This document shows, piece after piece, positions 26,313 to 36,319 of a DNA stretch of 64,000 nt. Source of the DNA: Oscillospiraceae bacterium (lineage in GTDB: Bacteria > Bacillota > Clostridia > Oscillospirales > QAMX01). Where the stretch lies: positions 200,485 through 264,484 of the forward strand of contig SVLQ01000001.1 of the NCBI GenBank assembly GCA_015067825.1, read 5' to 3'. A program made the position numbers and the translations under genes. The notes beneath the pieces are model-generated. The model was not told the DNA's origin and searched no databases. It was given only the letters and a program-made list of their open reading frames with translations. How positions within the stretch are numbered: the first letter of the stretch is position 1; every line of letters starts with the position of its first letter.

Positions 26313-28646
26313 TCATGCAAACGTAACGGTTTCGCCGGCGGCCATCGCTTTGGTGAAGATGCCGTTTTCCGCCGGCATCTGTGCGGCGAGTGCAGAGAGC
26401 TTCTCGCCGACCTTGAGACGCAAAACCGAATCGTTGCCGGCGGTGATCGTAAGCTTGGTCACCTTGCCTTCGCACCACACGATATCGACCGTAAAATTGC
26501 CTCTGGCCTTCAGACCGCGGACGGAGCCGTCCTTCCACGCATCCGGGATCGCCGGCAGAATATCGATCACGCGTGCGCCCGGCTCTCCGAGATGGCTCTG
26601 CAGCATCATTTCGGTCATACCGGAAACACCGCCGAAGTTGCCGTCGATCTGGAACGGAGGATGAATATCAAAGAGGTTGTTCGCAGTAGATTTCGTAATC
26701 AACTTACGAAGGTTTTCCCATGCCTGTTCGCCGTCCTTCAAGCGGGCAAAGCAGTTGACGGTCCAGGCCCGTGACCAACCGGTCTGGGCACCGCCGAAGG
26801 CCAAACGGCGCTCAAGCGATTTTCTTGCGGCCGCGTAGATCTCGGGAATTGCTTCGTTGATCTGATCGCCGGGATAGAGCCCGTACAGATGAGAGATATG
26901 ACGATGGTTAGGCTGTACTTCTTCAAAATCTTTGTTCCATTCACAGAGCGTTCCGTTGTAGCGCTCGCTGATGCGGAACGGCGGCAGACGACGTAAGGTC
27001 GATTCCAATTGCGCGGCGAAATCAAAATCGACATCAAGCCGGTTACATGCGTGAATCAAACGCGTAAAGAGCATATGGATTACTTCAAAATCGACCGTCG
27101 CACCGTATGTAAATCCAGTCAGCTTTCTCTCACCGTTTTTGTTGGTATAGTAGTATGGATTTTCCGGTGAATCCGACGGCGCTGTCGTCAAATGTCCTTT
27201 GCCGTCTTCAATCAGGAAGTCCAGGATAAATTCCGCAGATCCCTTGAGGATCGGATAGATCTCCTTGAGGTATTCTGCGTCGCCCGTAAACTCATAGTGC
27301 TCCCAAATATTCAAGCACAGCCAGGCACCGGCCATCGGAAAGACATAATAATCGTGCGGACCCGTACGGCCGAAAACGTCAGTTGTAGTGTTGACAATCC
27401 AGCCTTTGCAACCAAGCAGTTCTTTGGCGGTTCTCACACCGTATTTACTGAGCATCTTTACCATGTAGATCAGCGGCGGCATCGCAGAGGGCATGTTGGC
27501 AGGGCCGGCCGGCCAATAGTTCATCTCCGTGTTGATATTAAAGTGGTAGTCACTGCCCCACTCAGGACGGAAACCGTTGCACCAAATACCCTGAAGATTT
27601 GCCGGCAGCCGCGCATTTTTAGCGCTGCTCTCGATCAGCAAATAGCGGCCGAAGTTATAATAGAGCTCGAAGAAATCGATATCTTCGGTACGCTGCATTT
27701 GCAGATAGTAAAGGCGCCATTCCGTGGGAACCTCTTGCAGAGGAACGAAATCGTATTCTTCATCGGAATCAAGATGCAGTGCAACCGTATCGAAAACAGC
27801 TTTGTGGTCAGCGATATGCTGGGCCTTGATCGTTTCGTAGTCAACGGCCTTCATCGCTTCCAGCTTGGATTTCAGAACGGCACGGTAGTCGATGGATTCG
27901 TCGATATCGTACTTCTCAATGTTATAGTTCGTTTCAAACACGCCGTAGACGATCACCCACGTCGCATTTTCCACAAGGATCCGCTTTTTATCGTTGAACA
28001 GCGTACCGTCGGTGCGGACAAAGATGTTAGCGCCAAACGACATTCCTTCGCCGCATTCGCCGTAGTCATCTTCGTCGTAATAGGTCACGCGGCCGTTCAT
28101 AAAGAGCAGATCCTTGTGCAGCGCAGACGTATAGGCGTCCTGTTCGCGTTCCATCGTAACGTAGCAGTCAAATTCCGAAGTCGCCGACATTTTGTAAACG
28201 AGTCCGTCGTATTTTTCGCTGACAAAGGTCTCGCTCTTATATTCGGTCTTGCCTTTTTTGTACGATACACGGCCGATTGCTTCGCTGAGTTCGAGTTCTT
28301 TGCAGTAATTCTCAAAACGGCGATGATCCGGAAATTCGATCTTTACTTCGCCCATGCTTTCGAAGAAACGCACTTTTGGCGGGGTGGACAAAAAGTTTTC
28401 TTTGCAAATTGCTTCTGCCTCATCATAACGATCTTCTAACAAAAGCATACGCATTTTTTCCAGAGCTTCCGGTGAGCTGTTAAATTTTTCCTCGATCTGA
28501 CGGCCGCTCCACAGCGATTCTTCGTTGATCTCGATCGTCTCACAATACGGATCGCCGTATAGCATGGCACCGATGCGGCCATTTCCCAGCGGAAACGCAC
28601 GCATCCAATCGCGTTCGTAGTCTTCTTGCCAAACTCTTGTCGACAT
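26313..28646 (-). CDS. Glycoside hydrolase family 95 alpha-L-fucosidase, copy 1
   Basis: This 777-residue inverting alpha-L-fucosidase type acts on fucosyl-alpha-1,2-galactose ends of mucin or milk glycans. The catalytic features are visible: the NINTEMNYWP segment (two Asn that activate water), the acid Glu in LCEWNKDFEE before HRHISHLYGLYPG, and Asp in FQIDGNFGG. The N-terminal domain begins MRAFPLGNGRIGAMLYGDP. No signal peptide is seen, so it acts on imported oligosaccharides. It is a close paralogue of the next upstream gene. One difference is GWIVNTTTDVFG, where copy 2 has NHTTD. AAAGGAG precedes the ATG; it has its own promoter and terminator. Confidence 0.93.
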   Translation of the reverse strand: MSTRVWQEDYERDWMRAFPLGNGRIGAMLYGDPYCETIEINEESLWSGRQIEEKFNSSPEALEKMRMLLLEDRYDEAEAICKENFLSTPPKVRFFESMGEVKIEFPDHRRFENYCKELELSEAIGRVSYKKGKTEYKSETFVSEKYDGLVYKMSATSEFDCYVTMEREQDAYTSALHKDLLFMNGRVTYYDEDDYGECGEGMSFGANIFVRTDGTLFNDKKRILVENATWVIVYGVFETNYNIEKYDIDESIDYRAVLKSKLEAMKAVDYETIKAQHIADHKAVFDTVALHLDSDEEYDFVPLQEVPTEWRLYYLQMQRTEDIDFFELYYNFGRYLLIESSAKNARLPANLQGIWCNGFRPEWGSDYHFNINTEMNYWPAGPANMPSAMPPLIYMVKMLSKYGVRTAKELLGCKGWIVNTTTDVFGRTGPHDYYVFPMAGAWLCLNIWEHYEFTGDAEYLKEIYPILKGSAEFILDFLIEDGKGHLTTAPSDSPENPYYYTNKNGERKLTGFTYGATVDFEVIHMLFTRLIHACNRLDVDFDFAAQLESTLRRLPPFRISERYNGTLCEWNKDFEEVQPNHRHISHLYGLYPGDQINEAIPEIYAAARKSLERRLAFGGAQTGWSRAWTVNCFARLKDGEQAWENLRKLITKSTANNLFDIHPPFQIDGNFGGVSGMTEMMLQSHLGEPGARVIDILPAIPDAWKDGSVRGLKARGNFTVDIVWCEGKVTKLTITAGNDSVLRLKVGEKLSALAAQMPAENGIFTKAMAAGETVTFA

Positions 28647-28786: not shown

Positions 28787-31111
28787 TTACGCTTGGAACA
28801 AAACGGCTTCGCCGGCGGCCATTTTCTTGGCAAAAATGCCGTTTTCAGCCGGCATCTGTGCAGCAAGCGCGGAGAGCATATCGCCGACCTTGACGCGCAG
28901 GATCGAATCGTTGGCGGCGGTGATCGTGAGCTTGGTCACCTTGCCCTCACTCCATTCGATATCGACCGTGAAGTTGCCTCTGGCCTTTAGGCCGCGGACC
29001 GAGCCGTTCTTCCACGCATCCGGAAGCGCCGGCAGAACGTCGATGATGCGGGCATCCGGCTCACCGAGATGGCTTTGCAGGAGCATTTCGGTCATACCGG
29101 AAACACCACCGAAGTTGCCGTCGATCTGGAACGGCGGGTGCATATCGAAGAGGTTTTCGGCGGTCGAACGGATCATCAGCTGCTGCAGGTGTTCCCACGC
29201 ATTTGCGCCGTCCTTGAGGCGGGCGTAGAAGTTGATGATCCACGCACGCGACCAGCCCGTTGCACCGCCGCCGAACGCCAGTCGGCGGGCGATCGTTTTC
29301 TTGGCCGCCTCGTAGATCTCGGGGTTCGTCTCGTTGATCTGATCGCCCGGATAGAGCGCGAACATATGCGAAATGTGGCGGTGCTGCGGTTCGACCTCTT
29401 CGTAGTCCTTGATCCATTCGCAGACCGTGCCGTAGCGCTCGCTAATACGGAGCGGCGGCAATTTGGCAAGGATATCTTCCATGCAGGCGACGAAATCGGC
29501 GTCGATGCCAAGCGTTTTGCAGGTATGGATCGTGCGCGTATAGATCGCGTAGATAATCTCGAAGTCGATCGTTGCGCCGTAGGTAAACATGCTGTGCTTC
29601 TTCTCGCCGTTTTTGTCGTAGTAATAGAAATTGTTTTCCGGCGAGTTCGACGGAGCGGTCGTCAGGTAGCCGTTGCCGTCTTCGATCAGATAATCGCGCA
29701 GGAATTCGCACGCACCCTTGAGGATCGGATAGATTTCCTTGAGGAAATCGGTGTCGCCGGAGAACTCGTAATGCTCCCAAAGGTTCAGGCACAGCCACGG
29801 GCCGGCCATCGGGAAGAAACCGCAGTGGACGGAATCGTGCGGGCCGGTGCGGCCAAAGACGTCGGTCGTATGGTTGATGACCCAGCCTTCGCAGCCGAGC
29901 TGTTCTTTGGCGGTTGGGCGACCAAAGTTGCTGATCATCTTCATGAAGTGGATGAACGGACGCATCGTTTCCGGCATGTTGGCCGGTTCGGCGGGCCAAT
30001 AGTTCATCTGCAGGTTGATATTCGTGTGGTAGTCGCTGCCCCACGGCGGCATATAGCCGTTGCACCAGATGCCCTGCAGGTTGGCGGGAAGCTTGGCGTT
30101 TTTGCCGGAGCTTTCGATCAGCAGATAGCGGCCGAAATTATAGTAGAGCTCGTAAAGGTCGAGGTCTTCACGGCGGCGGCGTTCGACAAAATAGAGACGG
30201 TCGTCAACGGGCCATCTTTCATTTTTGGGCGCCTTGAGATCCAACGCAACCGTTTCGAAAACGGCTTTGTGCGCAGCGATGTGTTCGGCTTTGATCGTCT
30301 CATAATCGACGGCTTTCATCGCTTCCAGTTTGGATCTTAGGACCGCGCGGTAGTCGATAGATTCGTCGATATCGTACTTCTCGACGTTATAGTTCGTCTC
30401 AAACACACCGTAGATCGTAACCCACGTCGCATCGTGGACAACGAGATTGTGCTTTTCGTCAAAGAGCTTACCATCGGTACGGACATAGAGATTTGCGCCG
30501 AAGGACATCCCTTCGCCGCCCGCACCGTAATCCTCGTGGTCGGCATAGGTGATGCGGCCGTTCATAAAGAGCAGATCCTTGCTCAGCGCCGAGGTATAGG
30601 CATCCTGTCCGCGTTCGATCGTGATGTTGCAGTCAAACGGAGCCGACGCCGTCATTTTATAGACGAGACCGTCATATTTTTCACTGACAAAGGTCTCGCT
30701 TGCAAAGTTGATAACACCTTTTTTATAGGAAACACGGCCGATGGCCTCGCTGAGTTCCAGCTCTTTGCGGTAGTCTTCGTAGCGGGTCTTGTCCGGGAAA
30801 TCGATCCGCACTTCGCCCATGCTTTCGTAGAAACGAACGCGGGCCGGATTAGAGAGGAAGGTATCTTTGCAGAGATCGGCAGCTTCTTCGTACTGCTCGT
30901 CGAGCAGAAGCTGGCGGATTTTTGCCATCGCTTCGGGCGAGCTGTTGTAGGTTTCCTGGATCTGTCTGCCGCTCCAGAGCGATTCTTCGTTGATTTCGAT
31001 CGTTTCCAGATAGGGATCGCCGTAGAGCATCGCACCGACACGGCCGTTTCCGAGCGGGAACGCACGCATCCAGTCGCGCTGGTATTCGTTGTGCCAAAGT
31101 TTTGTAGACAT
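28787..31111 (-). CDS. Glycoside hydrolase family 95 alpha-L-fucosidase, copy 2
   Basis: This 774-residue paralogue of copy 1 is similar along its whole length, so the pair arose by tandem duplication. The catalytic pieces are again present: NINLQMNYWP, the Glu in VCEWIKDYEE before HRHISHMFALYPG, and FQIDGNFGG. It differs in having a two-residue-longer loop after GPHD and an intact His in INHTTDVFG. The central region around residues 290-310 (LKAPKNERWPVDDRL) is clearly diverged from copy 1, perhaps affecting substrate choice. GGAAAGG precedes the ATG. It is separately transcribed from a promoter at 31147-31175. Confidence 0.93.
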   Translation of the reverse strand: MSTKLWHNEYQRDWMRAFPLGNGRVGAMLYGDPYLETIEINEESLWSGRQIQETYNSSPEAMAKIRQLLLDEQYEEAADLCKDTFLSNPARVRFYESMGEVRIDFPDKTRYEDYRKELELSEAIGRVSYKKGVINFASETFVSEKYDGLVYKMTASAPFDCNITIERGQDAYTSALSKDLLFMNGRITYADHEDYGAGGEGMSFGANLYVRTDGKLFDEKHNLVVHDATWVTIYGVFETNYNVEKYDIDESIDYRAVLRSKLEAMKAVDYETIKAEHIAAHKAVFETVALDLKAPKNERWPVDDRLYFVERRRREDLDLYELYYNFGRYLLIESSGKNAKLPANLQGIWCNGYMPPWGSDYHTNINLQMNYWPAEPANMPETMRPFIHFMKMISNFGRPTAKEQLGCEGWVINHTTDVFGRTGPHDSVHCGFFPMAGPWLCLNLWEHYEFSGDTDFLKEIYPILKGACEFLRDYLIEDGNGYLTTAPSNSPENNFYYYDKNGEKKHSMFTYGATIDFEIIYAIYTRTIHTCKTLGIDADFVACMEDILAKLPPLRISERYGTVCEWIKDYEEVEPQHRHISHMFALYPGDQINETNPEIYEAAKKTIARRLAFGGGATGWSRAWIINFYARLKDGANAWEHLQQLMIRSTAENLFDMHPPFQIDGNFGGVSGMTEMLLQSHLGEPDARIIDVLPALPDAWKNGSVRGLKARGNFTVDIEWSEGKVTKLTITAANDSILRVKVGDMLSALAAQMPAENGIFAKKMAAGEAVLFQA

Positions 31112-31246: not shown

Positions 31247-31897
31247 TTACAGTACCAGCCTGCGGATTTCTTCTGCGGTATCGGCAAACTTTTCGGCACC
31301 GGCGGCCAAAAGCTGCTCCCGCGACCGAAAGCCCCAGGTCACTCCGATCACATCGATTCCGGCGTTCTGCGCCGTTTTGACGTCGACTTCCGAATCGCCG
31401 ACAAGCACGGTCCCCTCTTTGGGTACGCCAAGCTCGGTTAGGATGCGGTCGATGATATCCGGTGCGGGCTTACGCGGACAATCTTCGGTCTCGCCGCGAA
31501 CGACCTCGGCGGCGTCACCGAAGAGACCGTAGAAGATCTCCTTGGTTCCGGCATCAAACTTATTCGATGCAACGGCGATCCGCACGCCGGCATCCCGGAG
31601 TGCTTGCAGCAATTCGACCATACCCGGGTACGCGACCGTTCTGACAAGCAAATGTTCGCGATAATAGGCGCGAAACTCCCGCAGCAAGGAATCGCAGATC
31701 GCCGCATCGGTCCCGGCGGGTGCGGAGCGTTCGATCAGGTTGCGGATCCCATTTCCGATAGCCGCCCGCGTCTCCTCGAGGCTGCGTTCCGAAAAACCAT
31801 GCTGCGTTAAGGCGGCATTGACCGCGCCGTTCAGGTCGCCGAGCGTATCGGCAAGTGTGCCGTCGAGATCAAAAATTACGGTATGAAATTTTTTCAT
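31247..31897 (-). CDS. HAD-family phosphatase, phosphoglycolate phosphatase-like
   Basis: The protein has 216 residues. Motif I is FDLDGTLADT with the nucleophile Asp near residue 9, motif II is ASNKF, motif III is the Lys in PRKPAPD, and motif IV is VGDSEVD. The helical cap between motifs I and II is of the Gph/PGMB type. Substrates in this group range from 2-phosphoglycolate to sugar phosphates. The gene follows the ABC-F gene directly: an alternative ATG at 31918 overlaps its stop as TAATG, and MKKFHTVIFDLDG at 31897 is the better protein start. Confidence 0.88.
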   Translation of the reverse strand: MKKFHTVIFDLDGTLADTLGDLNGAVNAALTQHGFSERSLEETRAAIGNGIRNLIERSAPAGTDAAICDSLLREFRAYYREHLLVRTVAYPGMVELLQALRDAGVRIAVASNKFDAGTKEIFYGLFGDAAEVVRGETEDCPRKPAPDIIDRILTELGVPKEGTVLVGDSEVDVKTAQNAGIDVIGVTWGFRSREQLLAAGAEKFADTAEEIRRLVL

Positions 31898-31917
31898 TTT
31901 GCATTTCTTCTTTCTCA

Positions 31918-33450
31918 TTATGTTCGTTCCGCTATGAGTCCGTCTGAGTTCAGTCGATAGACCGTGGGGAAAACTTCGGTGAGAAGCTTTCGGTCATGCG
32001 TGACGCAGAGGATCGTACCGCGGTAGTTTTTCAGGATCTCGCGGATCACCGGCGCGGACATCGGACTTAAGTTTCTCGTCGGTTCGTCGAGGATCAGCAC
32101 GTCGGCTCCGTCGAGCACCATCTTTAAAAAGATCAGCTTAGCCTTCTGTCCACCCGACAGTTCCCCCATCCGCGCGCACATTTCGTCACGCGTGAAGCGC
32201 ACGCTGCCGAGGTACGACCGCGCCGCCGTAATATCGTCTTTTCGTCCCGACGGTACGAGAAAATCGACCGGTGTTTGCGAGAAATCGAGCCGTTCCGCAT
32301 AGTCCTGCGGCATATAGGCGGTGGACAGATCGCGCCGGGCCAAAAGCTCATCGGCGATCTTCCGCAGGAGGGTCGTTTTGCCGCAGCCGTTCAGCCCGAC
32401 AATTGCCGCGTGTTCGCCGCCATTCAGATGCAGCCGGATCCCCCGGGACAGCAGTCTCTCACCAACGACCAGTTCATCCAGCGAATAATCGAGCACGGTC
32501 TTTCCGGCCGGAAGCGAGATCTTTTCGGAGAAGTCCAGAAAGATCGCATCCTCAACGTCCGGCAGCTGCGTTTGGTGTTCTTTTTCGCGCTCGAACCGCC
32601 GTTCCTGCGCCAAAACCGATTTCATTTTCTTTTTTAGCAGCCGGGCGCCGCCGGGATCGGCACGGCTGATATTTCGCTGCGCCGTTTCGACCTTTCGGTA
32701 GATCTCGTCCCAACGGCGCATTTTTTGTTCGTAGTCGGCCGCCTCCTTGCGCGCGACCTGCTCTTGATGTGCAAGCAAGGCCAAACGTTGATCGGCATAC
32801 GCGCGGTATCCACTGCGCTTGACCGTATGGCGGGCCAGCGTTTTCTTCCGCACCTGCTCGATATGGATGATCACGTTGGCCGTCCGCTCCAGAAGCGTTT
32901 CGTCGTGCGAAATATAGAGCACCGGCCCCGGATAGGTGCAGAGAAACCGCTCAAACCATTCAAGCGTTTCCAGATCAAGATCGTTGGTCGGCTCGTCCAG
33001 CAAAAGCCAATCGCCCCCGCGCACCAAAACCGCCGCAATCTGCAGCTTCACCTTTTCGCCGCCGGAGCACGAACGCAAAGGCCGGGTTTCGTCAAAGATC
33101 TTCAGATTTAGCCCCACTTGCGCTGCGGCCATCGCCGCACTCTCCGGTTCAAGGAGATCGCCGCAGTTTTTCTGCATATAGTCGCGGATCGACATGGATA
33201 ATTCGCGTTCACTTAACTCCTGTGCAACGTATCCGCCGATATGGCCGCCGAGTGAAATCTTTCCTTCACAGGACGCGTAGGATGCGATCAACGCCTCGTC
33301 CGCAAGCGCCTTTAAGATCGTACTTTTGCCGTTGCCTTCCTCGCCGATCAGAGCAGCCTTGTCGCCGTCGTGCAGCACAAACGAAAGCCCGTCGACGAGC
33401 ACGCGCAAATTCTTTTCGATCGTAATTTTCAGATCATTTACCTGTATCAT
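31918..33450 (-). CDS. ABC-F family ATPase, ribosome-protection type
   Basis: This 510-residue protein has two ABC domains in one chain and no membrane segments. Walker A sites are GEEGNGKST (near 36) and GLNGCGKTT (near 350). Signatures are CSGGEKVKLQIA and LSGGQKAKLIFL; Walker Bs are LLLDEPTNDLDLE and LILDEPTRNLSP. The charged linker (about 230-300) would be the P-site tRNA interaction motif that reaches the peptidyl transferase centre. The long leader with a mini-ORF and terminators is the kind of control seen for antibiotic-responsive ABC-F genes such as vga(A), msr and lmo0919. The ATG at 33450 has GGAGAG, which is hidden in a hairpin. The drug range is unknown. Confidence 0.9.
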   Translation of the reverse strand: MIQVNDLKITIEKNLRVLVDGLSFVLHDGDKAALIGEEGNGKSTILKALADEALIASYASCEGKISLGGHIGGYVAQELSERELSMSIRDYMQKNCGDLLEPESAAMAAAQVGLNLKIFDETRPLRSCSGGEKVKLQIAAVLVRGGDWLLLDEPTNDLDLETLEWFERFLCTYPGPVLYISHDETLLERTANVIIHIEQVRKKTLARHTVKRSGYRAYADQRLALLAHQEQVARKEAADYEQKMRRWDEIYRKVETAQRNISRADPGGARLLKKKMKSVLAQERRFEREKEHQTQLPDVEDAIFLDFSEKISLPAGKTVLDYSLDELVVGERLLSRGIRLHLNGGEHAAIVGLNGCGKTTLLRKIADELLARRDLSTAYMPQDYAERLDFSQTPVDFLVPSGRKDDITAARSYLGSVRFTRDEMCARMGELSGGQKAKLIFLKMVLDGADVLILDEPTRNLSPMSAPVIREILKNYRGTILCVTHDRKLLTEVFPTVYRLNSDGLIAERT

Positions 33451-33502
33451 ATTCTTCTCTCCTGTTCTCAGGAGAATTAAGCGCCTTTTCCTCCGCGACA
33501 AA

Positions 33503-33540
33503 CAAAAAAGCCGTCTGTGTCTTTTGCGATACAGACAGCC
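33503..33540 (-). terminator. Leader terminator 2 of the ABC-F gene
   Basis: GCTGTCTGT (minus strand) pairs with ACAGACGGC (one G-U) around a 12-base loop, followed by TTTTTT. It ends about 54 bases before the ABC-F start. Confidence 0.82.
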
Positions 33541-33614
33541 CGATCCGTGTTGAAAAAGCCTGTTTCAGCACAAAAACAGACAAACAGATAGGAAGAAGCC
33601 TGTATCCAAACAAC

Positions 33615-33641
33615 GAAAAAAGACGCAGAATCCCCTGCGTT
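33615..33641 (-). terminator. Leader terminator 1 of the ABC-F gene
   Basis: ACGCAG pairs with CTGCGT around GGGATT, followed by C and six Ts on the minus strand. It begins about 21 bases after the mini-ORF stop. Confidence 0.78.
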
Positions 33642-33661
33642 ATCATCGTTCTCGGCACAGA

Positions 33662-33673
33662 CTACTTGGTCAT
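33662..33673 (-). CDS. Leader peptide MTK (three codons plus stop)
   Basis: ATG ACC AAG TAG on the minus strand lies five bases after AGAGGTG and is the first start codon in the predicted ABC-F transcript. It has no function as a protein and would act as a translation sensor for the downstream terminators. The strong ribosome site and its position directly after the promoter support it; the peptide itself cannot be confirmed from sequence. Confidence 0.65.
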   Translation of the reverse strand: MTK

Positions 33674-33702
33674 CTTTTCACCTCTTCCGTTTGTTTGATT
33701 GT

Positions 33703-33731
33703 ATTATAGCAAAATCCGATTGCTGCGTCAA
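33703..33731 (-). promoter_or_regulatory. Promoter of the ABC-F leader
   Basis: Minus-strand TTGACG (33726-33731) and TATAAT (33703-33708), 17-base spacer. Confidence 0.82.
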
Positions 33732-33752: not shown

Positions 33753-33804
33753 TTGACAAATACGGTTGCGCGTATATAATATACATATGAACAGATATTC
33801 ATAT
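33753..33804 (+). promoter_or_regulatory. Promoter and SmtB/ArsR-type operator of the metal operon
   Basis: TTGACA (33753-33758) and TATAAT (33775-33780) have a 16-base spacer. The inverted repeat ATATGAA-CAGATA-TTCATAT (33785-33804) covers the expected transcription start and matches the known operator of SmtB/CadC/CzrA metal repressors. Confidence 0.85.
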
Positions 33805-33818
33805 AAGGAGATGTTTCC

Positions 33819-34181
33819 ATGTCTGATAATATGGCTGCGCCGCATTGCGAAGACCTGTGCGTGCACAAAGAGATCGTCGACCGTGTAGACCGGCAGATGC
33901 CCGGCGAAGAAGAACTTTACGATCTGGCCGAGCTTTTCAAGGTATTCGGCGACACGACCAGAATCCGCATCCTTTACGTCCTGCTTAACGACGAGATGTG
34001 CGTTTGCGATATCGCCGCGCTTTTGGGCATGAACCAATCGGCGATCTCGCACCAGCTTCGCATTCTGAAGCAGTCACGGTTGGTGAAGTTCCGCCGCGAT
34101 GGCAAAAGCGTCTTCTATTCCCTCGCCGACGATCACGTACACGCGATGATCGCACAAGGTATGGAACATATCAGCGAATAA
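33819..34181 (+). CDS. ArsR/SmtB-family metal-sensing repressor
   Basis: This 120-residue winged-helix repressor is predicted to release DNA when it binds Zn, Cd or related metals. It carries two known metal sites. The alpha3N site is visible as HCEDLC near the N-terminus with MCVCD in helix 3 (CadC pattern). The alpha5 site reads D-x-H-x10-H-x2-E in DDHVHAM to EHISE, exactly the SmtB/CzrA spacing. The recognition helix is QSAISHQLRILKQ. AAGGAG precedes the ATG. The operator lies over its own promoter, so it is autoregulated and controls the HMA and ATPase genes that follow. Confidence 0.92.
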   Translation: MSDNMAAPHCEDLCVHKEIVDRVDRQMPGEEELYDLAELFKVFGDTTRIRILYVLLNDEMCVCDIAALLGMNQSAISHQLRILKQSRLVKFRRDGKSVFYSLADDHVHAMIAQGMEHISE

Positions 34182-34441: not shown

Positions 34442-36319
34442 ATGTCCGGATCGCAGCGAAAATCGTTGTATCTGATCATCATATCGGCAGCAACGCTTGG
34501 TTTCGCTTTGGTCGCCGATCATCTGAAGTGGCTGCCGGATTCCTGGCAGCCATGGGCAACGCTCGTTCTTTATCTGCTCCCCTATCTGCTCGTCGGCGCG
34601 GAGGTTATTTGGGAGGCCGTCAGCAACATCTTCGGCGGCGACGTATTTGACGAGTGCTTCTTGATGACGCTCGCATCCGTTGTGGCGTTTGTTTTAGGCG
34701 AATACGCCGAAGCGGTTATCGTCATGCTCTTCTATCAGGTTGGCGAACTTTTCCAGAGTTTAGCAGTCGCCCGTTCGCGAAAGTCGATTGCCGATTTGAT
34801 GAACATCCGTCCGGAATACGCCAATCTCGAAGAGAACGGCGTACTCTGCCAAGTAGATCCGTCCGAAGTGACTGTCGGTGATACGATCGTGGTCAAAGCT
34901 GGTGAACGAATCCCGCTGGACGGGATCGTCATCGATGGGCAGGCAACTCTGGATACCTCCGCTTTGACCGGTGAATCGGCACCGCGTGCGGTCGCAGTCG
35001 GTGCCGAGGTATTGAGCGGATGCATCGATCAGGACGGATTGCTCAAGGTTCGCGTGACCAAAGCGTTTTCCGAATCGACCGTTATGCGTATTCTCGCTTT
35101 GGTCGAAGACTCGGCCGACAAGAAGTCGCGGGCTGAAAACTTTATCACCGCATTTGCCCGCTGGTATACCCCCGCCGTCGTCGTTCTGGCCGTACTTTTG
35201 GCCGTTCTGCCGCCGCTTCTGACAGGCAACGAATGGAACACGTGGATCATGCGTGCGCTGACCTTCCTCGTCATTTCCTGTCCCTGTGCGCTTGTCATTT
35301 CCGTACCGCTGACGTTCTTCGGCGGTATCGGTGGAGCTTCCGCGCGCGGGATCTTGATCAAAGGTGGAAACTATATCGACGCACTTTCCAAGGTTGAAAC
35401 TGTCGTCATGGATAAAACCGGAACGCTGACGCACGGTGAATTTTGCGTTTGCGAGATCATGCCGCACGGTATTTCTGCCGACGAGCTGCTCACCCTTGCC
35501 GCCGCGGCCGAAACCTACTCCGACCACCCGATCGCCCGTTCGATCCGATCCGCCGCAGAAGATTTGCCGGCGGTTGATCCTGCAGAAATCGGCGCTGCTA
35601 CGGAACATGCGGGCAGAGGCGTATCTATCAGTCTCGGTACGGATCAGGTCTATGCCGGCAACTACAGACTGTTTGAGGAAATGGGCATTGCGACGGATTG
35701 CGAAACTGGCATCGGCACGATCGTCCACGTGGCCAGAAACGGCGTATACTGCGGTTGGCTTCGCATTGCCGACGAGCTCAAGCCCGAAGCAAAACCGGCA
35801 GTTTCCGCACTCCGATCGCTCGGAGTCAAGAAGACGATCATGCTGACCGGGGATCTCCGCACGGTCGCAGATGCGGTCGGCAAAGAAGCCGGTATCGATA
35901 ACGTTGTCGCTGAGCTGCTGCCGGATGGAAAAGTCGCTGAGATCGAAACATTGCTCGCCTCTCCCGACCGGCGCGGTTCGCTCGTCTTTGTCGGAGACGG
36001 CATCAACGATGCACCCGCACTCGCACTCGCAGACGTCGGTATCGCGATGGGAGCGCTCGGCAGCGATGCCGCGATCGAAGCCGCCGACGTGGTGCTGACC
36101 GACGATAACCCGCAGAAAATTGCCGCAGCGATTCAGATTGCCCGCAAAACGATGCGCATCGCCAAGCAAAATATCGTCTTCTCTCTCGGTGTCAAGATCG
36201 CGATTATGGTGCTCGGCGCGGCAGGGCTAGCAGGAATGTGGATGGCTGTTTTCGCCGACGTCGGTGTCTGTATGATTGCCGTGTTGAACGCGCTGCGCGC
36301 CATGCGTTCGGAATACTGA
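34442..36319 (+). CDS. Heavy-metal-translocating P1B-type ATPase (Zn/Cd/Pb type)
   Basis: This 625-residue exporter pumps metal out of the cytoplasm using ATP. The membrane metal site is C280-P281-C282 (SCPCALVIS), the phosphorylated Asp is D324 in DKTGTLTHG, the HP motif is SDHPIARS, TGES is in the actuator domain, and GDGINDAPAL closes the P-domain. There is no N-terminal HMA domain, which fits the separate HMA gene upstream. With an SmtB/CadC-like sensor in front, Zn(II)/Cd(II) is the likely cargo rather than Cu(I). GAGGG precedes the ATG. It is last gene of the operon before a terminator. Confidence 0.93.
   Translation: MSGSQRKSLYLIIISAATLGFALVADHLKWLPDSWQPWATLVLYLLPYLLVGAEVIWEAVSNIFGGDVFDECFLMTLASVVAFVLGEYAEAVIVMLFYQVGELFQSLAVARSRKSIADLMNIRPEYANLEENGVLCQVDPSEVTVGDTIVVKAGERIPLDGIVIDGQATLDTSALTGESAPRAVAVGAEVLSGCIDQDGLLKVRVTKAFSESTVMRILALVEDSADKKSRAENFITAFARWYTPAVVVLAVLLAVLPPLLTGNEWNTWIMRALTFLVISCPCALVISVPLTFFGGIGGASARGILIKGGNYIDALSKVETVVMDKTGTLTHGEFCVCEIMPHGISADELLTLAAAAETYSDHPIARSIRSAAEDLPAVDPAEIGAATEHAGRGVSISLGTDQVYAGNYRLFEEMGIATDCETGIGTIVHVARNGVYCGWLRIADELKPEAKPAVSALRSLGVKKTIMLTGDLRTVADAVGKEAGIDNVVAELLPDGKVAEIETLLASPDRRGSLVFVGDGINDAPALALADVGIAMGALGSDAAIEAADVVLTDDNPQKIAAAIQIARKTMRIAKQNIVFSLGVKIAIMVLGAAGLAGMWMAVFADVGVCMIAVLNALRAMRSEY

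Follow-up and report, generated by a model that had tools for sequence, protein, structure and literature searches.

A three-codon ORF and two mutually exclusive RNA helices point to a ribosome-mediated attenuator upstream of a clostridial ABC-F gene

The leader of an ABC-F gene in an Oscillospiraceae bacterium (GCA_015067825.1, contig SVLQ01000001.1) is very probably a ribosome-mediated transcription attenuator controlling that gene, as judged from leader comparisons and folding models. The leader occupies the minus strand, 33731-33451, of the 64,000-nt stretch of DNA that was analysed (the window), and comprises the following elements together with the regulated gene:

33731-33703, minus strand: promoter TTGACG-17-TATAAT with an extended -10 (TG), an 11/12 match to the consensus
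33688-33679, minus strand: Shine-Dalgarno (SD) of the mini-ORF, GGAAGAGGTG, by its sequence a strong site
33673-33662, minus strand: mini-ORF ATG ACC AAG TAG (MTK*), read from the sequence and backed by a 3-5-codon ORF in 82/123 homologous leaders
33667-33595, minus strand: P1, the putative anti-antiterminator helix (own versus swapped pairing, p = 9e-12, and folding)
33667-33646, minus strand: predicted 5' strand of P1, AAG-TAG-TCTGTGCCGAGAACGA (folding)
about 33616-33595, minus strand: predicted 3' strand of P1, TCGTTGTTTGGATACAGGCTTC (folding)
33640-33616, minus strand: T1, a hairpin of -8.1 kcal/mol (33640-33623) with a U6 tail (33621-33616), within the P1 loop
33610-33523, minus strand: putative antiterminator, pairing 33610-33598 (TTTGGATACAGGC) with about 33545-33523 (T3 5' arm) (own versus swapped pairing, p = 1.3e-9)
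33581-33553, minus strand: T2, a hairpin of -9.0 kcal/mol (33581-33558) with a U5 tail, within the antiterminator loop
33540-33504, minus strand: T3, the candidate conditional intrinsic terminator, a hairpin of -15.3 kcal/mol (33540-33510) with a U6 tail; most relatives have a gene-proximal U-tailed hairpin
33476-33457, minus strand: predicted hairpin over the ABC-F Shine-Dalgarno, TTCTCCTG-AGAA-CAGGAGAG, -10.8 kcal/mol (folding)
31918-33450, minus strand: regulated gene, an ABC-F ATPase of 510 aa with its start at 33450; nearest solved structure VmlR2 (8buu)

The fold of the whole leader scored z -4.27 against dinucleotide shuffles, with 0/200 shuffles equalling it, and the leader had no Rfam match at the gathering threshold or at E up to 1. 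The original prediction for this DNA had listed a promoter, a ribosome site, the MTK* ORF, two T6-tailed hairpins and a hairpin on the ABC-F ribosome site, all of which were located on the minus strand; the third U-tailed hairpin, T2 (U5), was absent from it.

Homologous genes at 131 loci yielded 123 distinct leaders. A mini-ORF under a strict rule (a ribosome site and 3-5 codons, 140-430 nt upstream of the gene) occurred in 82/123 of them, as compared with 6.9 +/- 2.3 in shuffles (maximum 15), and its GGTGAAAAG-type ribosome site is kept in relatives. Some of the other 41/123 leaders gain a mini-ORF under a looser rule, and some homologues (e.g., L006 and L037) have no such leader. In 44/65 non-redundant leaders vs 1% of shuffles, the 75 nt preceding the uORF contained a promoter with at least 10/12 consensus matches. 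As in vmlR-type leaders, the uORF is short, looks translated, has a ribosome site to itself and lies near the predicted transcript start.

The 5' strand of P1 consists of the last codon of the mini-ORF, its stop and about a dozen following bases, and the 3' strand is a stretch 60-90 nt downstream, giving a helix that overlaps the uORF as the anti-antiterminator of vmlR-type switches does. The swap and shuffle tests treated leaders as independent once close ones had been removed; in the 65 non-redundant leaders, the P1 duplex energy was -17.9 kcal/mol for own strands and -12.4 kcal/mol for swapped ones (p = 9e-12). In a position-anchored test of 40 three-codon leaders aligned at the ATG, pairing at positions +9 to +23 exceeded that in swaps, and most of these positions were served by several pair types: +13 was paired in 39/40 leaders through five pair types, and +20 in 38/40 through six. 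Pairing at +4 to +8 was not clearly above the swap level. Where codon 3 was altered (MRK to MRG or MRI), the partner strand was altered too, as seen in L042 (CAAATAATCCG), L058 (CGCGGGTAATCG) and L094 (CGCATCTGATCTG). Since codon 3 and its partner change together, and pairing is kept while the peptide varies, selection appears to act on base pairing more than on the peptide.

RNAalifold, run on a sequence-only alignment of 51 leaders, found no consensus pairs because helix register and loop length vary, and the position-anchored and swap tests were therefore used. A NusG-type pause motif, TTNTTT, was found between the uORF and the P1 3' strand in 20/65 leaders vs 14% of shuffles, an enrichment that is suggestive only. 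In L002, L003 and L004, inspection by eye showed that the P1 3' flank GCCGC is complementary to GCGGC just after the terminator, which suggests a further alternative pairing near the ribosome site of the gene.

A U-tailed hairpin lies just upstream of the gene in most leaders. The 5' arm of this terminator has its partner in the P1 3' strand or the adjoining flank (own -20.5 vs swapped -15.9 kcal/mol; p = 1.3e-9, n = 57). Antiterminator and intrinsic terminator are mutually exclusive, again as in vmlR-type switches. We modelled the effect of a ribosome footprint by cutting transcripts before the terminator 3' arm and placing the ribosome on the uORF start. Across 57 leaders, the modelled antiterminator occupancy rose with the footprint from 0.08 to 0.65; it went only from 0.12 to 0.19 when the P1 3' region was shuffled (a gain of only 0.06), and was unchanged by an upstream-only block. 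In the window, P1 (33667-33595) was the predicted fold without the footprint, and the antiterminator (33610-33598 paired to about 33545-33523) the one with it, although pairing of the latter was substantial even without a ribosome (0.56, rising to 0.83 with the footprint, when a wider pairing region was counted). Once the complete T3 is present, the minimum-energy fold of the window keeps T3 even with the ribosome bound, and antitermination must therefore be kinetic, as in other attenuators.

These data fit a model in which, when no drug is present, ribosomes would translate the three-codon ORF and leave, P1 would form over its last codon and stop, and the T3 5' arm would remain free, such that T3 forms and transcription ends before the ABC-F gene. 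A ribosome held by a drug on or close to the start of the mini-ORF would block P1, and the P1 3' strand would then pair with the T3 5' arm as an antiterminator, T3 would fail and RNA polymerase would read into the ABC-F gene, the product of which would relieve the drug-bound ribosome. The hairpin on the SD would lower basal translation. For this system we infer the transcription start, the transcript ends, termination, drug-induced stalling and resistance alike. The earlier proposal that a ribosome stalled on MTK* refolds the leader and permits read-through is supported by the conserved mini-ORF, the two exclusive conserved helices and the footprint folding; its core idea of stalling and read-through stands, while P1 and the antiterminator, the helices that would make up the switch, had been missed.

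T3 (33540-33504) is predicted, from the modelling and the relatives, to be the sole conditional, switch-coupled and conserved terminator. T1 and T2 persisted in both modelled states, with the footprint and without it, and only 4/65 leaders have three U-tailed hairpins. T1 is probably a pause hairpin or a weak terminator, and both T1 and T2, if efficient terminators, would stop read-through in either state. The SD hairpin was likewise predicted in both states; among the relatives, SD pairing exceeded 0.5 in 28/58 leaders, usually without a dedicated strong hairpin. By these models and comparisons, T1, T2 and the SD hairpin are local extras, outside the conserved design. The view of two serial terminators plus SD masking as the essential arrangement is not supported, only T3 being both switch-coupled and conserved. 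The original prediction had also staked itself on conservation of the mini-ORF and hairpins in related genomes: the mini-ORF and a T3-type terminator are conserved, the other hairpins are not. The 74-codon frame it pointed out (33658-33434) exists and is not conserved; it looks like chance, because frames of at least 60 codons overlapping the gene start occur in 18/65 leaders with unrelated sequences.

The SD hairpin of -10.8 kcal/mol raises the question of whether control is mainly translational, with the mini-ORF governing access to the ABC-F ribosome site and the terminators secondary. A precedent exists in cplR, whose induction is independent of its premature terminator (PMC10201436), and three relatives are arranged accordingly: L024, L028 and L109 carry MFA*/MLK* mini-ORFs, no gene-proximal terminator was found in them by the scan, and their SD and start codon lie in a long stem in which TGCGCATA and TATGCGCA form about ten pairs, making them a probable translational version of the same switch. 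In the window, however, the SD hairpin is present in both predicted states and relatives do not conserve it as a dedicated element, and the target of the conserved antiterminator is the terminator 5' arm. We therefore consider mainly translational control of the window gene unlikely, if the strongest of the alternatives to transcription attenuation.

In a second alternative, the mini-ORF would encode an arrest peptide acting sequence-specifically in response to macrolides, phenicols or oxazolidinones; msrD, whose leader peptide responds to macrolides, offers a precedent in principle (PMC10314930). The strict-rule matches in relatives comprise 46 different peptides, nearly all of 3-4 residues, of which MRK is the commonest (22 cases); MIIK, MRF, MLV, MLK, MTNK, MIG and MKN also occur, and the MTK of the window is one variant among them. 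Rather than the conserved peptide of ermC/msrD-type leaders, only the RNA pairing persists, which makes such an arrest peptide quite improbable and speaks against MTK as a conserved one. A variable peptide of only 3-4 residues makes drugs that stall ribosomes at initiation or immediately after it, and with little regard to sequence, the most likely inducers of the proposed attenuator: pleuromutilins, lincosamides and streptogramin A.

The last codon of the uORF (33667-33665 in the window) is biased, encoding Lys or Arg in 37/62 non-redundant 3-4-codon uORFs vs 10.5% expected. These codons are always AAR or AGR and never CGN, though CGN does encode Arg at the middle codon. P1 pairing does not explain the bias, the first two positions of the last codon being paired at a level not clearly above that of swaps. 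Such a bias would suit a mini-ORF that senses general translation stress or a charged tRNA (e.g., Lys) rather than drugs. The last codon is not fixed, however (A, G, F, V, L, I and E are found as well), and there are no codon runs; nor does the regulated gene belong to amino-acid metabolism, its product being an ABC-F protein. We give this explanation slightly less credence still than the arrest peptide.

Searching the genome of origin by motif for other mini-ORF switches returned matches at the level of the reversed control (42 vs 35 for the bare motif GGTG-N4-6-ATG-NNN-NNN-TRR), and it is through its conservation in homologous leaders that the mini-ORF stands out from chance. A chance assembly of ordinary terminators and a fortuitous mini-ORF before a constitutive gene would be in keeping with the near-chance frequency of the bare motif, but uORF, promoter, P1, antiterminator and terminator are all strongly conserved; this contradicts it and leaves it barely credible. 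In a separate observation, GGGGTGAGAAATGGTATAATAA, in which a strong ribosome site precedes the two-codon ORF MV*, occurs twice, 732 bases apart (G000 C14:212080-212101 and 212812-212833); the pair could be another mini-ORF or a repeat.

The regulated protein has two ABC domains, a helical linker (helices 215-260 and 266-291) and no membrane domain, as expected of an ABC-F protein, and VmlR2 (8buu) is its nearest solved structure both by sequence and by fold. Its relatives (39-56% identity) occur in many Clostridia, including Oscillospiraceae, Lachnospiraceae and Acutalibacteraceae, among them Neglectibacter, Blautia, Sporobacter, Caproiciproducens and many uncultured genomes. Their presence is patchy (12/21 genomes of the same family, 35/394 of the same order), and no relatives were found in the viral contigs searched. 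The curated NCBIfam cut-offs of the known resistance families (Vga, Msr, Lsa, OptrA, Sal and CplR models) were not reached, the best model being NF000355 (ribosomal protection; 279/380 bits), compared with 164/780 for CplR and 216/725 for Vga. The protein tree took in CplR-like, Vga-like, MsrE, OptrA and YdiF-like proteins; VmlR was missing from it, an ORF filter had removed PoxtA and LsaE along with one clade member and two Vga-like loci, and long branches in it were flagged. The window clade stood there on a branch of its own with 100/100 support and did not group with the known resistance families represented, so that the protein falls into a well-supported clade distinct from the resistance ABC-Fs used for comparison. 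The case that it confers drug resistance is circumstantial, drawing on the drug-type leader, VmlR2 as the nearest fold and the patchy presence.

Several neighbouring genes deserve mention in their own right. Directly downstream of the ABC-F gene is a HAD-type phosphatase (31247-31918, minus strand), the two frames meeting at base 31918, and the two genes are probably in one operon. Further along the same strand, two adjacent and closely similar genes of 777 and 774 aa (26313-28646 and 28787-31111), the second matching glycoside hydrolase family 95 (Pfam), are apparently a tandem duplication. On the plus strand, a divergent perfect promoter, TTGACA-16-TATAAT, and, after it, the near-palindrome ATATGAACAGATATTCATAT lead into genes for an ArsR-type repressor and a P-type ATPase (33753-34181 and 34442-36319), an arrangement that looks like a metal-resistance operon.

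Judging from these comparisons, the leader is a new example of an already known type of control, with the same switch predicted in relatives across Clostridia. It provides strong indirect evidence that an uncharacterised ABC-F clade, found in many Clostridia of gut and rumen, responds to drugs that target the ribosome. Intrinsic resistance that a search by gene name would overlook is accordingly probable in commensals, the window protein lying under the NCBIfam cut-offs. In evolutionary terms, the coding content of such mini-ORFs seems to drift while base pairing stays, and one sensor appears to be joined to transcriptional or translational outputs. A broader reading, which we put forward tentatively and hold to be rather doubtful as a whole, is that this whole uncharacterised clostridial clade, commonly found in bacteria of the gut and rumen, constitutes a family of intrinsic drug resistance; that one sensor (the 3-4-codon ORF and P1) is plugged into either a terminator or a stem masking the start codon; and that a preference in stalling or release underlies the A-R-R last codon (Lys or Arg). 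As no Rfam family matched the leader, a covariance model of it could reveal more cases.

No description of the leader of this clade was found in the literature searched, which is not proof of absence. The clade resembles FAF1, FAF2 and BAF1, Firmicutes ABC-F subfamilies predicted as resistance factors (PMC6723617), in being uncharacterised and patchily distributed. Very short uORFs precede several resistance ABC-F genes, namely vmlR2 (MK[L/Q]), lsaA (MAGN), vgaL/lmo0919 and Streptomyces are5sc (MLV), and stalling with pleuromutilin, lincosamide or streptogramin A drugs has been proposed or shown for them (PMC10201436, PMC12421871); on an MLV uORF, lincomycin, tiamulin and pristinamycin IIA stall the ribosome at the start codon (PMC12421871). 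The proteins and uORF sequences of these systems differ from those of the window, and their leaders are likened to ours by description. Three-codon uORFs are known for cplR (MR[I/M]), vmlR (MIN) and vmlR2 (PMC10201436). C. difficile cplR shares with the window a three-codon uORF, a terminator, an ABC-F gene and a host among the Clostridia (PMC10201436), whereas its terminator hairpin itself sequesters the SD, the two being separate in the window, and CplR-like proteins fall outside the clade of the window protein. The closest counterpart is the B. subtilis vmlR leader, in which a uORF encoding MIN, the anti-antiterminator SL-1, an antiterminator, the terminator SL-3 and the SD hairpin SL-4 form a switch of proven logic (PMC9226507). 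Unlike vmlR, the window has a uORF encoding MTK, a different ABC-F protein, three U-tailed hairpins and T1 within the P1 loop, and its drug response is one that we infer. Both leaders place a three-codon uORF inside an anti-antiterminator, set an antiterminator against a terminator, carry an extra hairpin before the terminator and an SD-sequestering hairpin, and precede an ABC-F gene; by this analogy, the mechanism proposed for the window would match that of vmlR almost element for element.
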